From a virus, in the IMG/VR virus record IMGVR_UViG_3300027905_000010, positions 1 through 43,681 of that record: 43,681 nt of DNA. One strand, 5' to 3'. The position numbers and the translations under genes were made by a program. The first letter of the stretch is position 1; each line of letters opens with the position of its first letter. The notes beneath the pieces were generated by a model. That model made no database searches and was not told where the DNA came from. It saw nothing but the letters and a program-made list of their open reading frames with translations. Below, one piece after another: positions 17,519 to 43,681 of this stretch.

Positions 17519-17555
17519 CCACTCCCAACCACTCCCAACCACTCCCAACCACTCC
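17519..17555 (-). repeat. 10-bp tandem repeat, G-rich on the coding strand
   Basis: On the plus strand the unit CCACTCCCAA occurs three times in a row, followed by a partial CCACTCC. On the minus strand, which is transcribed, this reads as repeated TTGGGAGTGG units with several GG or GGG runs. It lies in the 92-bp gap between the small HTH gene and the endolysin, the only sizeable gap in this part of the operon. Confidence 0.9.
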
Positions 17556-24624: not shown

Positions 24625-24942
24625 TCAGACGGCCTCGGCCAGCGGGACAGACGGTCCCGGGAGGACCGAAGGACCGGGCTGCGTGTCCGGGGTGGGGAGA
24701 GGCGCAGGGTTGTCTACTCCTTCAGGGGGGCGTTTGGAGAGGGAGGGCGCGGATTGAGGCCAAAGATCTGGGCGCAGTTCAGAACGAGTGATCAGCCCGA
24801 GGAGATCGGCTTCAATGGCGATGGCCAGCCTGGGTCCGGCAGGGACGGCGCCACGCAGAACCGCATGGACGTGGGAGTAGTCGTATCCCAGCCTCTTGGC
24901 CAAGGCGGCGATGTTGGAGACGCGTTCACGGAGATCAGACAT
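24625..24942 (-). CDS. YdaS-like Cro regulator
   Basis: This 105-residue protein has an N-terminal HTH, NIAALAKRLGYDYSHVHAVL, then RGAVPAGPRLAIAIEADLLG and ITRSELRPDLWP. The ending 'aIE..t.G.itr.eLRPDLwp' is diagnostic of YdaS-like Cro proteins. The C-terminal 40 residues are Pro-rich. The gene is divergent from the repressor, and its promoter candidate ends so close to the ATG that the mRNA may be leaderless; no Shine-Dalgarno is visible. It should act as the lytic-side regulator. Confidence 0.78.
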   Translation of the reverse strand: MSDLRERVSNIAALAKRLGYDYSHVHAVLRGAVPAGPRLAIAIEADLLGLITRSELRPDLWPQSAPSLSKRPPEGVDNPAPLPTPDTQPGPSVLPGPSVPLAEAV

Positions 24943-28774: not shown

Positions 28775-29977
28775 ATGGAAGACCTTGAAATCGGAACCGC
28801 CCCCATCACCCCGCTGGCCCCCAAGGCCAAGCGGGCCTCCCGCCGGTCCGCCGCGGACCTGGTGCTGGACGGCACCAGCGCCCGGGTGCTGGAGGAGGCC
28901 CCCCTGGAAGGCATCATCGAGCCCGAGAAGGTGGCCACCGTCGCGGAGGACAAGCGCCTCGAGGTGTTCTCTACCCCCGGCGGCCTCCGGCCCATCATCG
29001 ACCTGATCACCACCATGGCCCGGGCCCACAAGCCGGACCTCTCCACCGATGCCGGGCGGAAGATCACCGCCTCCGTCGCCTACCAGGTGGCCCGGTGCAA
29101 GACCCGCCTGGATGATGCCGGCAAGGCCCTGGTGGCCGAGCTGAAGGAGCTGCCCACCAGGATCGACGAGAACCGCCGCGCCATGCGCGAGGAGATGGAC
29201 GCCCTGAAGGACGAGGTGCGCCAGCCGCTGACCGACTGGGAGGCCGGCCAGGCCGCGCAGCAGGCCTTTGTCCGCGACATCCTCGACGCCCCGGGCCGGT
29301 TCGCCGCGGCCCCCGCCGCCCAGGTGCTGGCCGAGATCGAGCGCCTGGAGGCCCTGGACCTGGGCGCGGCCCCGGACTTCGCCGAGGACGCCCACCTGGC
29401 CCTGGCCGGGGCGCTGGATGCCCTGCACACCCTGCGCAAGAAGCGGGAGCAGGAAGACGCCGACGCCGCCGAGTTGATCCGGCTGCGGGCGGCGGAGGCC
29501 GAGGCCAAGCGCCGACAGCTGGCCGACGAGAAGGCCCGCAAGGACACCCAGGACGCCCTCGACAGGGCGGAGCGAGACAAGGCCGCCGCCGAGCAGCGGG
29601 CGAAGGATGCCGAGGCCGCTGCGGCCAGGGCAAAGGCCGATGCAGAGGCGGCCGCCGCCAAGGCGAAAGTCGACGCCGAAGCTGCGGCTGCCCGGGCGAA
29701 AGCCGATGCGGAAGCCGCCGCCGAGAAGGCCAAGGCCGACGCAGAGGCAGCTGCGGAGCGCGCCGCCCAGGCGGAGCGGGACCGCGCGGCAGCCGCCAAG
29801 AAGGCAGATGAGGACAAGGCCGCCGCGGCCGCCGCCAACGTGGAGCACCAGCGCACTTTCAACCGCGAGGCGCTGGCCGACCTGCTGAATGTCCTGGCCG
29901 GCGACGAGGCCGCGGGCAAGGCGGTGCTGCTCGCCATCTACAACCGGCAAGTCCGGCACGTGGCGATCAATTATTAG
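28775..29977 (+). CDS. Coiled-coil protein of the recombination operon (DUF1351-like N-terminus)
   Basis: This 400-residue protein has an N-terminal domain with PDLSTDAGRKITASVAYQVA, then KTRLDDAGKALVAELKEL and DEVRQPLTDWEAGQ. This 'dlsT..Grk.i.s.a..va..Kt.ld..gk.l' pattern is familiar from phage proteins next to RecE/RecT-type genes. Residues about 225-350 are a TolA-like coiled coil of repeated AAARAKADAEAA and AEKAKADAEAA units. The C-terminus is a short helical domain (ADLLNVLAGDEAAGKAVLLA). It may scaffold the recombination machinery. Confidence 0.65.
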   Translation: MEDLEIGTAPITPLAPKAKRASRRSAADLVLDGTSARVLEEAPLEGIIEPEKVATVAEDKRLEVFSTPGGLRPIIDLITTMARAHKPDLSTDAGRKITASVAYQVARCKTRLDDAGKALVAELKELPTRIDENRRAMREEMDALKDEVRQPLTDWEAGQAAQQAFVRDILDAPGRFAAAPAAQVLAEIERLEALDLGAAPDFAEDAHLALAGALDALHTLRKKREQEDADAAELIRLRAAEAEAKRRQLADEKARKDTQDALDRAERDKAAAEQRAKDAEAAAARAKADAEAAAAKAKVDAEAAAARAKADAEAAAEKAKADAEAAAERAAQAERDRAAAAKKADEDKAAAAAANVEHQRTFNREALADLLNVLAGDEAAGKAVLLAIYNRQVRHVAINY

Positions 29978-31576: not shown

Positions 31577-31736
31577 GACCCTCGCCGACCTCCGCGCCGC
31601 TCAGGAGGACATCCGGCATCTGGAGATGGAAAACCAGTTGCTGGCCCGCCAGAACGAGCGCTACCGCCATGAGGCCAACCTAGCCTACCTGGAGGGGCTG
31701 GACCAGGGGCGGCTGCAGATGGGAGGCGCGGCGTGA
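31557..31736 (+). CDS. Small coiled-coil protein
   Basis: This 59-residue protein starts MSALARRTLADLRAAQEDIR, with AAAGGAG upstream of the ATG, and continues LEMENQLLARQNERYRHEAN, a perfect leucine-type amphipathic helix. It overlaps the preceding gene by 20 bp and the next by four (GTGA). It is short enough to be missed by length filters. Confidence 0.6.
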   Translation: MSALARRTLADLRAAQEDIRHLEMENQLLARQNERYRHEANLAYLEGLDQGRLQMGGAA

Positions 31737-32227
31737 ACATCGAAACTTTCCTGGCCCTTCGCCGTGACGCCCTGATCATCGCCGCCGATCGAGAATTCCG
31801 GGGCAGCACCGAGCCCATCCCGGAACTGCCGGCCGTGCCCGGGATCTACCGGCCCACGCCCAAGCCTGAACCGTTCCGAGCCCGCACCAAGGGTGCACCC
31901 GTCAGCCACAAGGAGGCCAATCGCCGCTGGTCCGCCGCGCGCCGCAGCCGGCAGGCCCGTGGAACGCTGCCGGTTGGCACCCCCATTGAGATGGGGCGCG
32001 GCATGGGGACGATCATCGGCTACGTGGCCCCGGGGGAGGACCCCATGGCCTACGTCCCTGCTGGGACCAAGACCGGCCACATCACCGGGTGCCGGCGCCA
32101 CGAGGCGAATAACGTCCCGCGTTACGCCGTGACGGTGCTGCTCAACGGCGAGCTCCACTACTACTTCCCGAAATCGGCCTGGGTGGAGCGTTTCGTGGAC
32201 CCCATCACGATGAAGAGGGTGTCATGA
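31733..32227 (+). CDS. Hypothetical protein
   Basis: This 164-residue protein starts at a GTG, continues NIETFLALRRDALIIAADRE, has a basic linker (RRWSAARRSRQARG) and a C-terminal beta-like region (YAVTVLLNGELHYYFPKSAW). It is coupled to the neighbours on each side, the second being the recombinase. No family recognised. Confidence 0.6.
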   Translation: MNIETFLALRRDALIIAADREFRGSTEPIPELPAVPGIYRPTPKPEPFRARTKGAPVSHKEANRRWSAARRSRQARGTLPVGTPIEMGRGMGTIIGYVAPGEDPMAYVPAGTKTGHITGCRRHEANNVPRYAVTVLLNGELHYYFPKSAWVERFVDPITMKRVS

Positions 32228-33264
32228 GCTTTGAGGTTCCCAATTTCGAAATTGAGGAGAACCAAGAAACGGTGCCTGCACTGATTTCTAGCTCCGTTCC
32301 CCTTATCAATCCTCACTCCCCCATCATGGAAGTGATCAAGGCGTTCCTGGCCTCAGCGGACATAAACAAACGCACTGCCCGCGGCTATCGTCAGCACCTT
32401 CTTGCCGGCATGGGTGCAATGTGCATCGAGAAATTGGCTGACCTTGAGCCAGTGCACCTGATGAATTACCGGGCGGAGATCATGGCCGATTCCAGGAGCG
32501 CTTCGGTGCATTCGAAGGCCCTCATTGCCCTTCGATCATTCCTGGAATGGGGCGCCGCGCTCCGAGGCCACACCATCCCCATGGACCAGGCCAAGTATCT
32601 GCTCAAGGTCCCCAAGACAGTTGTGATCACTCCCCACGAGATCCTGACCGACAAAGAGATCGCCCGCTATCTTGCTACTGCGAAGCGAACGGGAAAGCGC
32701 GAATTCGCGCTCGTCATCGTGGCGCTCGGGTCAGGCCTCCGCATTTCAGAACTAGTCCACCTCGACATCAAGGACATCTGGGAAGACCCTGGCGGCTTCA
32801 CGGTCCACGTCCGGCAAGGGAAGGGTGCAAAAGATCGGTTGGTGCCCGTTCGAAAGGAAGTAGGCAAGGCGATTGCCACGTATCTGGAGAGCACTGGACG
32901 CCGGATGGGGGATGGCGGCCCATTGTTTCAATCTGAGGACCACGCCATGGCTGATCGGGATTCCTGGCGCCTAAGCACAAAGACTGCCTCCCGGATCATC
33001 AAGGAATGTGCCGAACTGGCTGATATTCGTAAGCGAGTAACGCCCCATGCCCTGCGCCACACCTTTGCCGCCGCAACATTTATGCACAACAAAAACGTTT
33101 TGATCGTTTCCAAACTGTTGGGCCATGCCGGAATCGCTACTACATATCGATATATCGACCACCTCATGGATTCCGACTTTCGGAATGCCACACCGGCCTA
33201 TCTCGTCGGTGCGAAGGGGCCGCGGATCTCTGCATCCATCACCAAGAACCACGACGCCGCTTAA
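32224..33264 (+). CDS. XerC/D-like tyrosine recombinase, second of the genome
   Basis: This 346-residue protein has a SAM-like N-terminal DNA-binding domain (FLASADINKRTARGYRQHLL, RSFLEWGAALRGH) and a catalytic domain with Arg173 (GLRISEL), Lys200 (RQGKGAKDR), His275 and Arg278 (HALRHTF), His301 (LGHAG) and Tyr310 (TTYRYI). All catalytic residues are present. It differs from the 431-residue integrase in size and lies inside the early operon, coupled to the gene upstream. A role in dimer resolution, cassette exchange or inversion is possible. Codons are AT-richer than in the late genes. Confidence 0.9.
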   Translation: MSFEVPNFEIEENQETVPALISSSVPLINPHSPIMEVIKAFLASADINKRTARGYRQHLLAGMGAMCIEKLADLEPVHLMNYRAEIMADSRSASVHSKALIALRSFLEWGAALRGHTIPMDQAKYLLKVPKTVVITPHEILTDKEIARYLATAKRTGKREFALVIVALGSGLRISELVHLDIKDIWEDPGGFTVHVRQGKGAKDRLVPVRKEVGKAIATYLESTGRRMGDGGPLFQSEDHAMADRDSWRLSTKTASRIIKECAELADIRKRVTPHALRHTFAAATFMHNKNVLIVSKLLGHAGIATTYRYIDHLMDSDFRNATPAYLVGAKGPRISASITKNHDAA

Positions 33265-33283
33265 GGCGGTCCTGAAAGGACCC

Positions 33284-33305
33284 CCACTCGCCGGAACCCC
33301 GGCAC
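33284..33305. repeat. 22-bp direct repeat, copy 1
   Basis: This stretch is identical to 33612-33633 and contains the hairpin GCCGG-AACC-CCGGC. It lies 20 bp after the recombinase stop and is followed by GAAAGGA, the ribosome site of the gene at 33323. Directly upstream is another hairpin, GGTCCT-GAA-AGGACC (33268-33282). Confidence 0.9.
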
Positions 33306-33322
33306 CCATCGAAAGGAACCGC

Positions 33323-33604
33323 ATGCAAGCGACCGTCGAGAAATTCCAGGAATTGCAGGCGAGGTGCGATGAAGGGATTGCCCTCACTGAGGACCAGCGC
33401 CAATTCGGGGATCAAATCTGGATCGACATCGAGACCCGCCTGAAAGAGTTTCACAAGCTCAAGGAGACCTACCGCGAGTTGGAGGCGGCCCAGGCCGAAC
33501 TCACCCTGATTGAGTGGTGGTTGACCAGGCAGCCCACCGCCTGCTGGCCGGAGAAGTTCACCCGCGTTGCGCTGCTCCATGACTACATGAACGCCAACAA
33601 GTAG
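33323..33604 (+). CDS. Small charged protein between the direct repeats
   Basis: This 93-residue protein starts MQATVEKFQELQARCDEGIA, is helical and charged (LTEDQRQFGDQIWIDIETRL, KEFHKLKETYRELEAAQAEL) and ends with WWLTRQPTACWPEKF and ALLHDYMNANK. AAAGGA precedes the ATG. It is flanked by exact 22-bp repeats and follows the XerC/D-like gene, giving it the look of a single-gene cassette. Function unknown. Confidence 0.65.
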   Translation: MQATVEKFQELQARCDEGIALTEDQRQFGDQIWIDIETRLKEFHKLKETYRELEAAQAELTLIEWWLTRQPTACWPEKFTRVALLHDYMNANK

Positions 33605-33611
33605 CACCTGT

Positions 33612-33633
33612 CCACTCGCCGGAACCCCGGCAC
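33612..33633. repeat. 22-bp direct repeat, copy 2
   Basis: Exact second copy, 328 bp after the first. It lies between the stop of the gene at 33323-33604 and the ribosome site of the next gene, so the repeats bracket exactly one gene with its start signal. Confidence 0.9.
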
Positions 33634-33651
33634 ATCTCTGAAAGGCACTCC

Positions 33652-34056
33652 ATGAACCTCCGAGCCCTTGCCGAACACTTCTGCACCGCCCCATCCTATG
33701 GAGCCAAAATGCTTGAACCTGCCTGTCTCAAACGCATGCGCGGATCGGTGGTGATGTTGCCGCCGCCCGGCGAATCGGTTGCCCTGGAACTGCTGGATGA
33801 GGTGGATCGTCTCCTCGCACGGGTCAAAGAACTGGAGGCGAAGGATTGTGAAAGCCTGATCACCCTGTCTCAGGTCCAGGACCGGGCCAAGGACAAGTGC
33901 GACGACCTCCAGGAGGCCCTGCTTGCTCTCCTCGGCGCACCCGGCTTCCGAACCGAATACGAATGCGAACATGGCACCCCGCTGGGGCAGAAGTGCATCG
34001 CCAGCAACTGCCACCTGAAACCCGTCCGCTTCGCACTCAAGCACCTTCCGAAGTGA
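33652..34056 (+). CDS. Hypothetical protein with Cys/His cluster
   Basis: This 134-residue protein starts MNLRALAEHFCTAPSYGAKM, has an acidic helical middle (ELLDEVDRLLARVKELEAKD) and a C-terminal YECEHGTPLGQKCIASNCHL with three Cys and two His, a possible zinc site. GAAAGG lies upstream of the ATG. No family recognised. Confidence 0.6.
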   Translation: MNLRALAEHFCTAPSYGAKMLEPACLKRMRGSVVMLPPPGESVALELLDEVDRLLARVKELEAKDCESLITLSQVQDRAKDKCDDLQEALLALLGAPGFRTEYECEHGTPLGQKCIASNCHLKPVRFALKHLPK

Positions 34057-34070
34057 ATCCGGAGCTACCG

Positions 34071-34442
34071 ATGGAACTCTATTACCGCATGGCAGACCGC
34101 TGCATGTATGAAGGCAGCGAGATCAAGATCGAACTCCAAAAGTTCCGGGTGGTCAAGCGCACCCCCAAGGGGGCCTGGATCATCCCCTCTTGGGAACCTG
34201 GGTGGTGGCATGAATCCAATCCCAAGAAGCGGTTCGTCCTGGACGGAGAGGGAAGGCGCTATGCCTACCCCACGGTGGAGGCCGCGCACAAGTCCTTCCT
34301 CCGGCGCAAGGTGGTCCAGATCAGCCGCCTGGAGGACCAGATGCTGATCGCCAAGGTCGCCCTGGAGATCGGCTCCAGGCCCGACTTTGAGCCCGACAAA
34401 ACCTATGTGGACGAATCCCTTAGCAAGTTTGTCTGCTACTGA
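34071..34442 (+). CDS. Hypothetical protein
   Basis: This 123-residue protein starts MELYYRMADRCMYEGSEIKI and contains VVKRTPKGAWIIPSWEPGWW and RRYAYPTVEAAHKSFLRRKV, a pattern of alternating strands ending in a helix seen in small phage proteins of unknown role. A CCGGAG site precedes the ATG by seven bases. The C-terminus is acidic. Confidence 0.6.
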   Translation: MELYYRMADRCMYEGSEIKIELQKFRVVKRTPKGAWIIPSWEPGWWHESNPKKRFVLDGEGRRYAYPTVEAAHKSFLRRKVVQISRLEDQMLIAKVALEIGSRPDFEPDKTYVDESLSKFVCY

Positions 34443-34469
34443 CCAAATCCGTGAACCTCGGAGCCTGAA

Positions 34470-35153
34470 TTGAAAATCCTTTCCCTATGCACCAGTGCCG
34501 GCCTTTGGGACCGCGCCTGGATCGAGGCCGGGCACCAGATCATTCCGGGGTGCGAGATCATGCCGCACAAGCGGGCCATGTATGAGGTGTTCTGCGGCGG
34601 AACCCACATGTGCCACGACCTGGCCGATCTGCCGCCCATGATCCGTGGCCATCACTTCGACGGCATTATCGGGGGCATCCCCTGCCAGTCCAGGTCCAAA
34701 CTCCGGGCGATCCGCGAGGCCAAGTTCCCCGACCTCCTGCCGCTGACCATGGCCGTGCTGAACGCCTGCACCTGGGACTGGTGCCTTCTGGAGAACGTGT
34801 CCCCGCTCGACATCCCGGCGTTCTCCAAGTCCAGGCTCAACGCCATGCACTACGCCCAGCCGCACCAGAGCCGGGAACGCTGGTTCACCTTCAGCCCCAA
34901 CCTGACGCCCCCCCGGCGCATCTTCGAGGGCGATGTGGACGATCTGCTGGCCTATTCCGTGGTCGCTGGTCGGATCTACGGCCCGAAGCGCGGCTCCCGG
35001 CTCCAGGGTTGGCCAGAGTTCATGTCCCTGGCCGGTGCGTTCCCCTGTGTCCAGATGCAGGAGGCCCTGGCAGACGGAGTGCCCCGTGGTCTGGCCGATG
35101 CCTGGATCCGCTCCATCGAAGCCACTCAGCCATCAACCCAGGCCACGGCCTGA
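34470..35153 (+). CDS. DNA C5-cytosine methyltransferase, solitary
   Basis: This 227-residue enzyme, starting at TTG with GGAG eight bases upstream, has the SAM-binding motif I (LSLCTSAGLWDRAWIEAGH), motif IV with catalytic Cys72 (IIGGIPCQSRSKL), motif VI LENVSP (108-110), motif VIII QSRERWF (133-139), motif IX-like GSRLQGWPEFM and a C-terminal GLADAWIRSI. The target recognition region is short. No restriction gene lies nearby, so it probably protects phage DNA from host enzymes or alters expression. Motif I is divergent (CTSAG instead of FxGxG). Confidence 0.85.
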   Translation: MKILSLCTSAGLWDRAWIEAGHQIIPGCEIMPHKRAMYEVFCGGTHMCHDLADLPPMIRGHHFDGIIGGIPCQSRSKLRAIREAKFPDLLPLTMAVLNACTWDWCLLENVSPLDIPAFSKSRLNAMHYAQPHQSRERWFTFSPNLTPPRRIFEGDVDDLLAYSVVAGRIYGPKRGSRLQGWPEFMSLAGAFPCVQMQEALADGVPRGLADAWIRSIEATQPSTQATA

Positions 35154-35194
35154 GCATGTCCAGGCGCTGCCCTGGACCCAACCATGGAGACACT

Positions 35195-35539
35195 GTGAAT
35201 CTCGAAACCATGAAATTACTTGAAGCCGCAGCCAGCCCGGCCCCATGGAGGCCCAACACCATCCATGAAACCGAGGGAGAGGGCGCCTGGGGATGCGGTC
35301 CACTGTGCGAACCCGTTTCGGATGAAGATCTCGAACGGGTCGATAGCGGGGACTGGGACCAGGATGCTCAGGAGGAACTTGCCGAGCAGGACGCCGATCT
35401 GATCGCCACCCTCCGCAACCTCGCCCCGGAACTCATCGGCCTGTGGGAAGCCGTGAACGCCACCCGTTTCGACCACGGTCTTTGCGTTTCAGTCCTGAAG
35501 GCCCTGGCCAACCTCAACGCGAAGGCCGACACCCTGTAA
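35195..35539 (+). CDS. Ead/Ea22-like phage protein
   Basis: This 114-residue protein starts at GTG (MNLETMKLLEAAASPAPWRP), with TGGAG five bases upstream. It contains EQDADLIATLRNLAPELIGL and WEAVNATRFDHG. The pattern 'A.pgPW.....DA.liA..Rn..peLl.lw' is frequent in Ead/Ea22-like proteins of unknown function from early operons. An upstream in-frame ATG at 35156 is possible but less well placed. Confidence 0.6.
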   Translation: MNLETMKLLEAAASPAPWRPNTIHETEGEGAWGCGPLCEPVSDEDLERVDSGDWDQDAQEELAEQDADLIATLRNLAPELIGLWEAVNATRFDHGLCVSVLKALANLNAKADTL

Positions 35540-35588
35540 CGCATCTGTCCAAAATCCGCCCCGGCGGTCCCCGGGAGAAAGGCAACCC

Positions 35589-35699
35589 GTGACGATCAAA
35601 CCTCAACTCCTGTGGGAAAACTGGCTTTTCGGATTCACGCTCTGGACCCGGCATGTTGGGCTTTTCTTCGGACCCTTTTCCCTCTGGCTCAAATTCTGA
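35589..35699 (+). CDS. Small hydrophobic peptide ORF
   Basis: This 36-residue frame starts at GTG after AGAAAGG and encodes MTIKPQLLWENWLFGFTLWT, then HVGLFFGPFSLWLKF. It is rich in Trp, Phe and Leu and could sit in or on the membrane. It fits exactly between the preceding and following genes with their linker sequences. Confidence 0.5.
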   Translation: MTIKPQLLWENWLFGFTLWTRHVGLFFGPFSLWLKF

Positions 35700-35727
35700 G
35701 CCTGTCCATCCTCGGAAGGAGGAAACC

Positions 35728-36099
35728 TTGACCGACCAACCCATGACCGCCTCCATGCAAGATGCCCTGAACCGGCTGAACCAGGATCGGCGCGTCCGCC
35801 CTGAACTAGCACCTGTGGACCTGATGCTCAGGGGCGCCATCCAGCGGGGCGGCGAGATCGTGGCGGAAAACGACCGGCTCCGCGCCCAGGTCGCGGAACT
35901 CACTGAGGACCGAGACCTCTGGATGGCATCCGAAGCCGAAGCGGCAGAGGCGAACCGAGTCCTCGAGGCCCGGGTCGCGGAACTGGAGCGCTGCCGGGAG
36001 GCCCTGGACCAGATCATCAGTGACCCCAGGTGGGTCAGGTTCGAGAATTTCGATGCCGCCTGGATCTACACCATTGCGACCGAAGCCCTCCACCCCTAA
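35728..36099 (+). CDS. Coiled-coil hypothetical protein
   Basis: This 123-residue protein starts at TTG with a perfect AGGAGG six bases upstream. It encodes TDQPMTASMQDALNRLNQDR, then a coiled coil (AENDRLRAQVAELTEDRDLW, EANRVLEARVAELERCREAL) and ends WVRFENFDAAWIYTIATEAL. An in-frame ATG upstream at 35653 would lie in the preceding peptide and has no ribosome site. Confidence 0.6.
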   Translation: MTDQPMTASMQDALNRLNQDRRVRPELAPVDLMLRGAIQRGGEIVAENDRLRAQVAELTEDRDLWMASEAEAAEANRVLEARVAELERCREALDQIISDPRWVRFENFDAAWIYTIATEALHP

Positions 36100-36140
36100 T
36101 CCACCCCGCGGGGAGCCCCGCACAACGACGAGACCCGACC

Positions 36141-36344
36141 ATGACCGACCGCCCTGCCCGACCCATCCCAATTCTGGCGCTCAGTGTCGATGAAGCCGCC
36201 GCGGCCCTGCACATCGGCAGGACCAACGTGCTGGCGCTCATCGATGCCGGCGAGATCCGCCCTGTGCGCCCCAAGACCTGCAAAACCAAAATCATCATCT
36301 CGGTAGAGGAACTGCAGCGGTATTTGAGGGACAGCGCCGCATAG
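36141..36344 (+). CDS. Excisionase-like HTH protein
   Basis: This 67-residue protein contains LSVDEAAAALHIGRTNVLAL, IDAGEIRPVRPK and IISVEELQRYL, the MerR-like fold shared by excisionases and HTH_17 proteins: helix-turn-helix, wing, and final 'is.eeL..yl'. It is the last gene of the early operon and converges on the integrase, 27 bp away. It should bias integrase to excision after induction. Confidence 0.8.
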   Translation: MTDRPARPIPILALSVDEAAAALHIGRTNVLALIDAGEIRPVRPKTCKTKIIISVEELQRYLRDSAA

Positions 36345-36349
36345 CCCAT

Positions 36350-36373
36350 GCCCCCGGCACCGGGGGCTTTTTT
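36350..36373 (+). terminator. Terminator of the early operon
   Basis: GCCCCCG, a GCAC loop and CGGGGGC form a 7-bp GC stem followed by TTTTTT (36368-36373). It ends the plus-strand operon just as the integrase stop codon is reached on the other strand. Confidence 0.9.
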
Positions 36374-37667
36374 ATGTCTTGATCTTCAAGGAGGCCACGC
36401 CTTCAGGCTGATAGATGCCCAGGGTCGGGGCGAGTTTCCGGATGGCCTCCACCTTGGCCGTCTTGCACAGGTGCCCGTAATGCTTCTCTACCTGCCGTGT
36501 ATCCCGATGCCCTAGGTTCTGGGCCACAAAAACCAGGGGCACACCACGGTTCACCAGACCAGAGGCGTAGGTGTGGCGCAGCTCGTGAAAAACCATCGGC
36601 TCCAGTTTGGCCGCTCTCAGGGCCGCCTTGAGTTTGCGGCCGATCTCCGCGCGATCCCATCCCCCGGTGTTGCGCCGGTCCTTTCGGGCATAGACCGTTC
36701 GGGGGAACACGATGGCGGATGCCTCCAGTCCGGCGCACCGCTCCCGGAAATACTCCTGGGCCTCTTCCGTGAGGGTGATCCACCGGGGCCCAGTCTTCCC
36801 ATCCACGTAGACTGCTCCATTCTCGGCATCGAAGTGCCGGGCCTGCACCGCGGCCAGCTCGCCCTCTCGGCCCCCCGTGAACAGGCCGGCCTGGACCAGG
36901 TGCCTGAAGTCTATGTCCACGCAGCAGTTGACTAGCCGGACTTGCTCATCGGCGGACAAGAAGTGGACCCGGGCCACGTCCACCTTCCGGAATGCCCGGA
37001 CGCCGGCCCAGCCCAGATTATTCTCCACCAGGTGCTCATCCATCGCATGGTTCAGCGCGGCCCGCAGATCCGTCCATAGACGGTTGGCCGTGGATCGGCG
37101 TGCGCGGATCTCATCTGGGCCCGATGGCGCTTCGCGCTCCTTTCCCCGGCGTCTCCGGCCCGACTTGGAGATCAGGAGCATCCAGGCTTCAATGCGCTTG
37201 CGGGTCAGTCGGTCGGCCGGAATCGTCCCCAGGTGGGGAATGACGTGGGCGGCCATGTCTTTCCGGGTGCGCTCCGCGTTGGTGGAGCCCTGGCGCTCCT
37301 TGTCGGCCAGATAGTCCGCGATGGCATCGGCCACGGTGTATGCGCCGTCCCGGATCACATCTCCGGTCGCCTCGTGGAAGGCCGCTTTGAACCACTCCCG
37401 GGCACCTGCCTGGGCCTGGGACCAGTCCAACACCATCTTGCCGTCAGGGTCCGAGTGGTCGTCTGCCGCGCCCAGGGGCTTGTACAACATCGGGGGCTTG
37501 GCGCTAGGGTTGTAGTAGCGGGCGATCCAGGTTCCTCCAGAGGGAGCCTTCCGATAGCCGATGAACCGGCTCTTTTCCAGGGTGAACCAGTAAGGCTCCT
37601 TCCGGATCTCTAGCGGCGCGCGGGCGGTGCGGTCCTTCAGAAAGGAGCTGTCCTTCGTCCTGGCCAT
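36372..37667 (-). CDS. int: Tyrosine integrase
   Basis: This 431-residue site-specific recombinase has an N-terminal arm-binding region, a SAM-like core-binding domain (about 110-230) and a catalytic domain with Arg267 (TGGREGEL), Lys291 (DGKTGPRW), His361 and Arg364 (HELRHTYA), His387 (LGHRDTR) and Tyr397 (EKHYGHL). All catalytic residues are intact. Its upstream region carries candidate attP arm sites. ATG 37667 gives a basic N-terminus. Confidence 0.95.
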   Translation of the reverse strand: MARTKDSSFLKDRTARAPLEIRKEPYWFTLEKSRFIGYRKAPSGGTWIARYYNPSAKPPMLYKPLGAADDHSDPDGKMVLDWSQAQAGAREWFKAAFHEATGDVIRDGAYTVADAIADYLADKERQGSTNAERTRKDMAAHVIPHLGTIPADRLTRKRIEAWMLLISKSGRRRRGKEREAPSGPDEIRARRSTANRLWTDLRAALNHAMDEHLVENNLGWAGVRAFRKVDVARVHFLSADEQVRLVNCCVDIDFRHLVQAGLFTGGREGELAAVQARHFDAENGAVYVDGKTGPRWITLTEEAQEYFRERCAGLEASAIVFPRTVYARKDRRNTGGWDRAEIGRKLKAALRAAKLEPMVFHELRHTYASGLVNRGVPLVFVAQNLGHRDTRQVEKHYGHLCKTAKVEAIRKLAPTLGIYQPEGVASLKIKT

Positions 37668-38538: not shown

Positions 38539-38566
38539 ATGATAGGACAGACTGTCCACTGTGCAA
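38539..38566 (-). promoter_or_regulatory. Promoter with internal palindromic operator
   Basis: On the minus strand TTGCAC (38566-38561), 16 bases and TATCAT (38544-38539) form a promoter with a near-consensus -10. The spacer is almost filled by the palindrome GGACAG-A-CTGTCC (38545-38557). A second small palindrome, TGTG-A-CACA, lies at 38574-38582. Confidence 0.6.
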
Positions 38567-43368: not shown

Positions 43369-43681
43369 CTAGAAGGTGACGCCGAGGCTCGTGCCGGTCG
43401 CATCGGTGAATTCGAGGGTCCCGGTCACCGCGCCGCCAGGGAGAGCCACGCCCGTGGCGTGGGCGGAGACGACACCCGGGACGGTCAGGGCCGCCTGCTC
43501 CAGCAGGGCCCCCACCAGGGAGGCGCTGAACTGCTGGCCGAACACCTCGGACTGCCAGGGCACGCCCACGGTGGTGTCATAGAAGACCTCGCCAAGGAAG
43601 GTGCTGATGGCCGAAGCCACATCCTGCGCCAGGGCGGCGCCCCCGGTGGCCACGGCCAGGTTGCCCTGGTTGTCGAGCATC
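43369..43681 (-). CDS. GPW/gp25-like baseplate wedge protein, 3' part (crosses the join)
   Basis: This is the distal part of the 116-residue protein that starts at base 115. It contains the segment SAISTFLGEVFYDTTVGVPW, the kind of conserved core seen in gp25-like wedge proteins, and ends LGVTF before a TAG. The baseplate J gene follows 9 bp later with its own GGAG site. The family assignment rests on motif feel, size and gene order. Confidence 0.75.
   Translation of the reverse strand, partial: MLDNQGNLAVATGGAALAQDVASAISTFLGEVFYDTTVGVPWQSEVFGQQFSASLVGALLEQAALTVPGVVSAHATGVALPGGAVTGTLEFTDATGTSLGVTF
43605..43681. repeat. Terminal direct repeat, right copy
   Basis: This is the exact partner of bases 1-77. 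It is too short to be a typical biological terminal redundancy for a 43-kb phage, so an assembly overlap on a circular or circularly permuted genome is the preferred reading. Confidence 0.95.

Follow-up and report, generated by a model that had tools for sequence, protein, structure and literature searches.

Integrons rely on the integrase IntI, an entry site (attI) and folding attC sites with inverted core sites (GTTRRRY/RYYYAAC). In T4-like phages, PeSL stem-loop cassettes carry early promoters and act through homology. The pdif modules of Acinetobacter plasmids are Xer-dependent and are bounded by 28-bp sites with conserved arms and a variable centre (PMC6449649). Cluster K mycobacteriophages have 13-bp start-associated sequences, GGGATAGGAGCCC, beside start codons, with a proposed role in translation initiation (PMC3203893), and the stoperators of Cluster A mycobacteriophages are asymmetric repressor sites distributed across the genome (PMC9283540).

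The DNA analysed here (the window) is a stretch of 43,681 nucleotides comprising the whole of an IMG/VR virus record. An exact 77-bp terminal repeat (1-77 = 43605-43681) makes it probable that this record is a whole genome of 43,604 bp, assembled as a circle. An initial annotation had noted a second, XerC/D-like tyrosine recombinase in this genome, followed by what might be a gene-cassette array whose exchange that recombinase could drive. My reading, to which I give a probability of about 0.6, is that of a worn cassette array in which exchange would take place at a 6-bp core, TGTCCA, through a trans-acting site-specific recombinase (Table 1).

Table 1. Features of the recombinase and array region of the window
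Feature	Position	Strand	Remarks
Xer-like tyrosine recombinase	32224..33264	+	346 aa; PF00589, E 2e-28
Linker 1	33265..33322	+	Decayed site CCCCCA (33281-33286) replacing TGTCCA; leader hairpin GCCGG/CCGGC; GAAAGG ribosome site
22-bp repeat, copy 1	33284..33305	+	Core end + leader type CTCGCCGGAACCCCGGC
Cassette gene A	33323..33604	+	93 aa; no known family
Intact site GCACC-TGTCCA-CTCGC	33604..33619	+	Core 33609-33614; left arm overlaps gene A stop codon
22-bp repeat, copy 2	33612..33633	+	Same leader type precedes different genes in four other viral contigs
Cassette gene B	33652..34056	+	134 aa; unknown
Cassette gene C	34071..34442	+	123 aa; phrog_13631; G002 protein 80% identical
Degenerate site GCTAC-TGACCA-AATCC	34435..34450	+	Fused to TGA stop
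Cytosine-C5 methyltransferase-like cassette gene	34470..35153	+	227 aa; 77% relative in G003
Intact site GAGCA-TGTCCA-GGCGC	35152..35167	+	Core 35157-35162
Cassette gene	35195..35539	+	114 aa; unknown
Intact site GCATC-TGTCCA-AAATC	35541..35556	+	Core 35546-35551
Possible small cassette gene	35589..35699	+	36 aa
Intact site GAGCC-TGTCCA-TCCTC	35698..35713	+	Core 35703-35708
Last cassette gene	35728..36099	+	123 aa
HTH_17/excisionase-like gene	36141..36344	+	3' of array
Phage integrase	36372..37667	-	PF00589; separate from array

The recombinase is complete, as annotated, and exists besides a separate integrase: both match PF00589, and the motifs R, K, HxxR, H and Y are present in the former (residues aligned to XerA). 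It lies directly upstream of the array, 20 nt distant, and its gene has 56% GC compared with 65% for the genome. With 130 and 128 bits against the curated XerC and XerD cut-offs of 335 and 330, it scores far below a chromosomal ortholog of either, and its 87 bits likewise fall short of the 265 bits set for IntI (TIGR02249). No close relatives were found in 398 genomes of the Chthonobacter phylum, and plasmids contained no relatives at E 1e-20. The sole close relative recovered (62%) is on contig G001, which stops 8 nt past the recombinase stop codon (L005, positions 1-8), a spot where an array could begin and possibly an assembly break at a variable array. Gene 31733-32227, used as a query, found no related phages. 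The window also encodes an ExoVIII-like nuclease; it contains no Rfam families or tRNAs.

Other repeats lie elsewhere in the window. GGACAGACTGTCC, a palindrome except for an odd central base, occurs at 38545-38557 and, as a one-mismatch copy, at 24645-24657; near the repressor-like gene 24628-24942, the pair is possibly an operator pair. A 33/66-bp in-frame tandem repeat, rich in A, K, D and E (29606-29756), lies in a 400-aa gene (28775-29977, phrog_1376), and the 10-bp repeat CCACTCCCAA is present in 3.7 copies (17519-17555) in a gap between structural genes.

Within the array, the two exact hairpin-bearing 22-bp repeats, CCACTCGCCGGAACCCCGGCAC, do flank one small gene plus its GAAAGG ribosome site, as initially annotated, and the window holds no further copies at up to 3 mismatches (0 expected in shuffles). 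The repeat spans just the last three bases of the core and the following leader, that is, a hairpin with the ribosome site after it. I rejected it as the unit of exchange, since it is a core end plus one among many leader types, and the idea that these repeats are the exchange sites gives way to TGTCCA with its arms as the informative part. The TGTCCA words expected in later gaps are present: the linkers between 33265 and 36140 (8 gaps, 305 nt) contain four exact copies where 0.11 would be expected (p about 5e-6). Near 34443 a related word does occur, but it is TGACCA at 34440, fused to the stop codon. Four sites are intact and about half are decayed; the sites of the window are the most decayed among the arrays.

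Leader types of the window recur in other phages. Gene C matches G002 at 83% DNA identity exactly over 34068-34442, with different neighbours, and the leader CCAAATCCGTGAACC of the degenerate site 34435-34450 recurs in G002 before a different gene. At site 35152-35167 the leader forms a hairpin, TCCAGG/CCTGGA, of a type that occurs in many phages. Further on, 35545-35582 is 97% identical to a linker of G004 that precedes another gene, and 35965-36128 matches the end of the G007 array at 97% identity. On balance, 33265-36140 is best read as a worn phage gene-cassette array.

Arrays with the same boundary site occur in 14 other IMG/VR phage records, which are metagenomic, several of them fragmentary, with genes called by a simple script; close relatives among the records are G009/G010/G012, G013/G015 and G002/G016. 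The recombinase, gene C and the methyltransferase, used as queries, each found one relative among viral contigs (G001, G002 and G003, respectively), and these share with the window almost solely the queried accessory gene. In G002 there is a run of nine cores, with TGTCCA after nearly every small-gene stop. Records G004-G012 were collected by pattern scans with two linker types. As a core-blind check, a scan with an array leader not containing the core found seven contigs, and in all seven TGTCCA lies 34-35 nt beyond the leader, while the first cassette differs between them; one of these contigs (G014) carries a fresh array of six cores. Two conserved leaders occur ahead of the first core in relatives, leader A at 34-35 nt and leader B at 55-56 nt. 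Neither leader was found in the window, and no array leader sequence was found in known phages and plasmids. Since the same kind of array is also carried by G008 (L039-L044), a 106-kb phage with 50% GC, the cassette pool spans phages differing in size and GC. A scan of GTDB with the type-1 linker, as a search for the system in sequenced bacteria, gave one match, in Chthonobacter, which I rejected as chance-like because its 8-kb locus has no further post-stop TGTCCA. A literature search for TGTCCA in phages returned nothing relevant. Pentapeptide-repeat genes (ADLSGANL) are found in several differing copies near arrays (L008/L009 in G002, L025 in G004, L032 in G007), and their internal repeats probably recombine.

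Among the 6-mers that follow the stop codons of 663 genes in eleven records, TGTCCA is the most enriched (60 occurrences, 8.5 expected, p 1e-30). The full site spans about 16 bp, GMDNH-TGTCCA-DNHKC, and lies just 3' of stop codons, once per cassette and in a single orientation, that of transcription. The invariance of the core is partly by construction, the sites having been collected via TGTCCA; array gaps without this word show the one-mismatch variants TGTCCG, TGTCAA, TGCCCA and TGACCA. Searching both strands of 556 kb for strict sites gave 26 sense and 0 antisense sites in arrays and 6 elsewhere. Most linkers are 13-60 nt long, and in G004-G012 their left part (the stop codon and 0-12 nt) and right part (the leader of the gene that follows) occur in free combination on either side of TGTCCA.

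Over 74 unique sites, the left flank GMDNH and right flank DNHKC are mutual reverse complements centred exactly on the core, although part of the left-arm pattern may stem from stop codons (TGA, TAG) at a fixed distance. The arm symmetry score reaches 34 at the core, whereas no other offset exceeds 19 and no other common 6-mer exceeds 5.7. Counting against a recombinase site, conservation of the arms is weak, with about five weak positions on each side. Within individual sites, arm complementarity does not exceed that of shuffles (148 against 141.7, SD 8.0), which makes an RNA hairpin unlikely and a symmetric protein site likely; an inverted repeat in the consensus without complementarity in each site is what one would expect of a protein-DNA recombination site. 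For this reason I rejected the idea that the linkers are RNA hairpins for translational coupling, with TGTCCA as a loop or an anti-Shine-Dalgarno strand. Some leader hairpins do include the core (TCCAGG/CCTGGA), but leader structures differ and several linkers have none, so that this explanation is highly improbable.

In BLASTN comparisons between records, 25 of 78 homology boundaries within arrays lie within 3 nt of a core edge where 1.45 would be expected; these boundaries are not independent (pairs and related contigs recur) and represent about 9-10 distinct joins. A few boundaries, which count against the core as the place of exchange, fall inside genes. Among the clearest joins at a core is that of G009 and G012, which match at 99.6% for 3,003 bp beginning with the first T of the core but show no relationship upstream. 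Upstream of that core G012 carries the G008 array leader, and the same cassette stands seven cores further on in G008. A 316-bp core-to-core unit is common to G004 and G009/G010/G012 in different neighbourhoods, and another such unit, carrying a methyltransferase and flanked by core edges left and right, is found in both G002 and G011. Along 18-20 kb, much of the sequence of G016 matches that of G002 at about 86-97% (93.6% for the final 985 bp); this match breaks off with the last base of the first core, and the G016 contig itself ends a single base further on. At the joins inspected, partners share 0-2 nt beyond the core. Some leaders are shared between different genes, indicating that the far end of the leader, too, is a place of some exchange.

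Thus the comparison of relatives bears out the annotated array: flanks are retained, and whole genes are gained or lost with joins exactly at TGTCCA. A cassette array of swappable small genes is well supported by these alignments, from which it is evident that cassettes move between unrelated phages; I infer that site-specific recombination at the core is responsible.

One contig, G011 (L037), carries five cores and, through an exact 127-bp repeat at its termini, forms a closed sequence of 3,462 bp. It is composed mostly or wholly of cassettes, the fifth of which holds the cytosine methyltransferase shared with G002; of its called genes, six are without a Pfam match and one has only a weak zinc-ribbon match. 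G011 could be either an excised circle of several cassettes or a loop produced by assembly.

In the explanation proposed here, a cassette would begin with a short leader, in many cases a hairpin followed by a ribosome site, and continue with a small early gene (as a rule just one) up to its stop codon, and cassettes would be joined by the site of about 16 bp, with two short inverted arms around the asymmetric core. A site-specific recombinase acting in trans, be it an Xer-like tyrosine enzyme or a serine enzyme that cuts at the central TC, would exchange strands within the core and thereby excise and insert cassettes, in some phages behind a fixed leader sequence that would act like an entry site. 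In most array phages the enzyme would probably be provided by the host or another element, the window recombinase being one candidate. It is quite unlikely that this recombinase is itself the enzyme of the system, with helpers serving the phages that lack one. It is an intact Xer-type enzyme 20 nt upstream of an array, Xer enzymes use 6-bp centres, and the contig that carries its 62% relative breaks off at a point where an array might begin. However, 14 of 15 array records have no tyrosine recombinase (PF00589; the window has two and G001 one), an absence that is firm only for the apparently complete G002, several other records being fragments. None of 17 records has a serine recombinase, so that G002 is without either type, and no gene family, in particular no recombinase gene, was found to be common to the array phages. 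Arrays whose sites are better and more numerous exist in 14 records lacking a tyrosine recombinase, and on these grounds I rejected the window recombinase as a necessary enzyme: the drive initially attributed to it is probably not required. The decay of about half of the window sites also argues against active use by this recombinase, its GC content is unlike that of its neighbours, and the window has a separate integrase.

The main rival to a trans-acting recombinase remains annealing. Here the linkers would be kept for expression, as promoter, hairpin and ribosome-site modules, and annealing recombination of the ERF, RecT or RecE type would swap genes via short shared words, much as in T4-like stem-loop cassettes and with no dedicated site or enzyme. 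G002 encodes ERF and YqaJ, G007 encodes RecT and the window its ExoVIII-like nuclease, and hairpin leaders are reused before different genes. Yet recombining partners share merely the 6-bp core and 0-2 nt, the joins fall at the core edge and not within the longer leaders that are shared, and the arms are symmetric exactly about the core. So short a shared sequence within a symmetric frame favours a dedicated enzyme acting in trans over annealing, which I consider unlikely. Alternatively, the sites could bind a regulatory protein, one per gap, with joins as a by-product. Their intergenic position and single orientation relative to transcription recall the stoperators of Cluster A mycobacteriophages and a dyad would suit a dimer, but the present sites are restricted to the accessory array and not genome-wide, the same site is found in phages with unrelated backbones, and the joins exactly at the core are left unexplained. 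A purely regulatory role is thus very unlikely.

The sharp, gene-sized boundaries of small genes shared by phages are an old question, to which the usual answer is random recombination and then selection. In these arrays a specific 6-bp word inside a symmetric site marks the boundary, once per gene and across different backbones, which makes directed exchange directly testable. The site gives a route to a shared pool of host-takeover genes, including methyltransferases, an RNA ligase, a helicase and many unknowns. Should an enzyme be identified, it might also be useful as a compact tool for assembling cassettes.

Among the described systems, stoperators are likewise intergenic and in one orientation relative to transcription, but are distributed across the genome, whereas the sites here are confined to accessory arrays (26 strict sites there and 6 elsewhere in the 556 kb). 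Start-associated sequences are similar in being short asymmetric repeats in one orientation before accessory genes that differ from phage to phage. The site here, in contrast, has a different sequence from GGGATAGGAGCCC, follows stop codons instead of standing at start codons, and marks recombination joins. As with PeSL cassettes, intergenic hairpin units flank swapped small early genes, although the joint here is a 6-bp core. The pdif modules, too, consist of genes between short sites whose inverted arms enclose a 6-bp centre, and their enzyme is supplied in trans by the host, as may be so for these arrays. Unlike a 28-bp Xer site with conserved 11-bp arms, however, the present site has degenerate arms and an invariant centre, which is its conserved part, and the sites form dense arrays with a common orientation. 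Integrons resemble these arrays in several respects: the genes are small, lack promoters and all point the same way, each with a site close to its stop codon; in some phages a fixed leader stands ahead of the first cassette; entire cassettes are gained or lost; and circles may occur. Yet the arrays here are phage-borne and without IntI (no PF00589 match at all in 14 of 15 array records), and their site is much shorter, with neither an attC fold, its arms not being complementary site by site, nor a GTTRRRY core. It is an even chance that they represent a previously undescribed phage-borne cassette system, in which a putative recombinase would exchange leader-gene-stop units, drawn from a pool of small early genes, between unrelated phages at a 16-bp dyad whose TGTCCA core is invariant, with free circular cassettes: an analogue of the integron, yet distinct from both integrons and dif modules.
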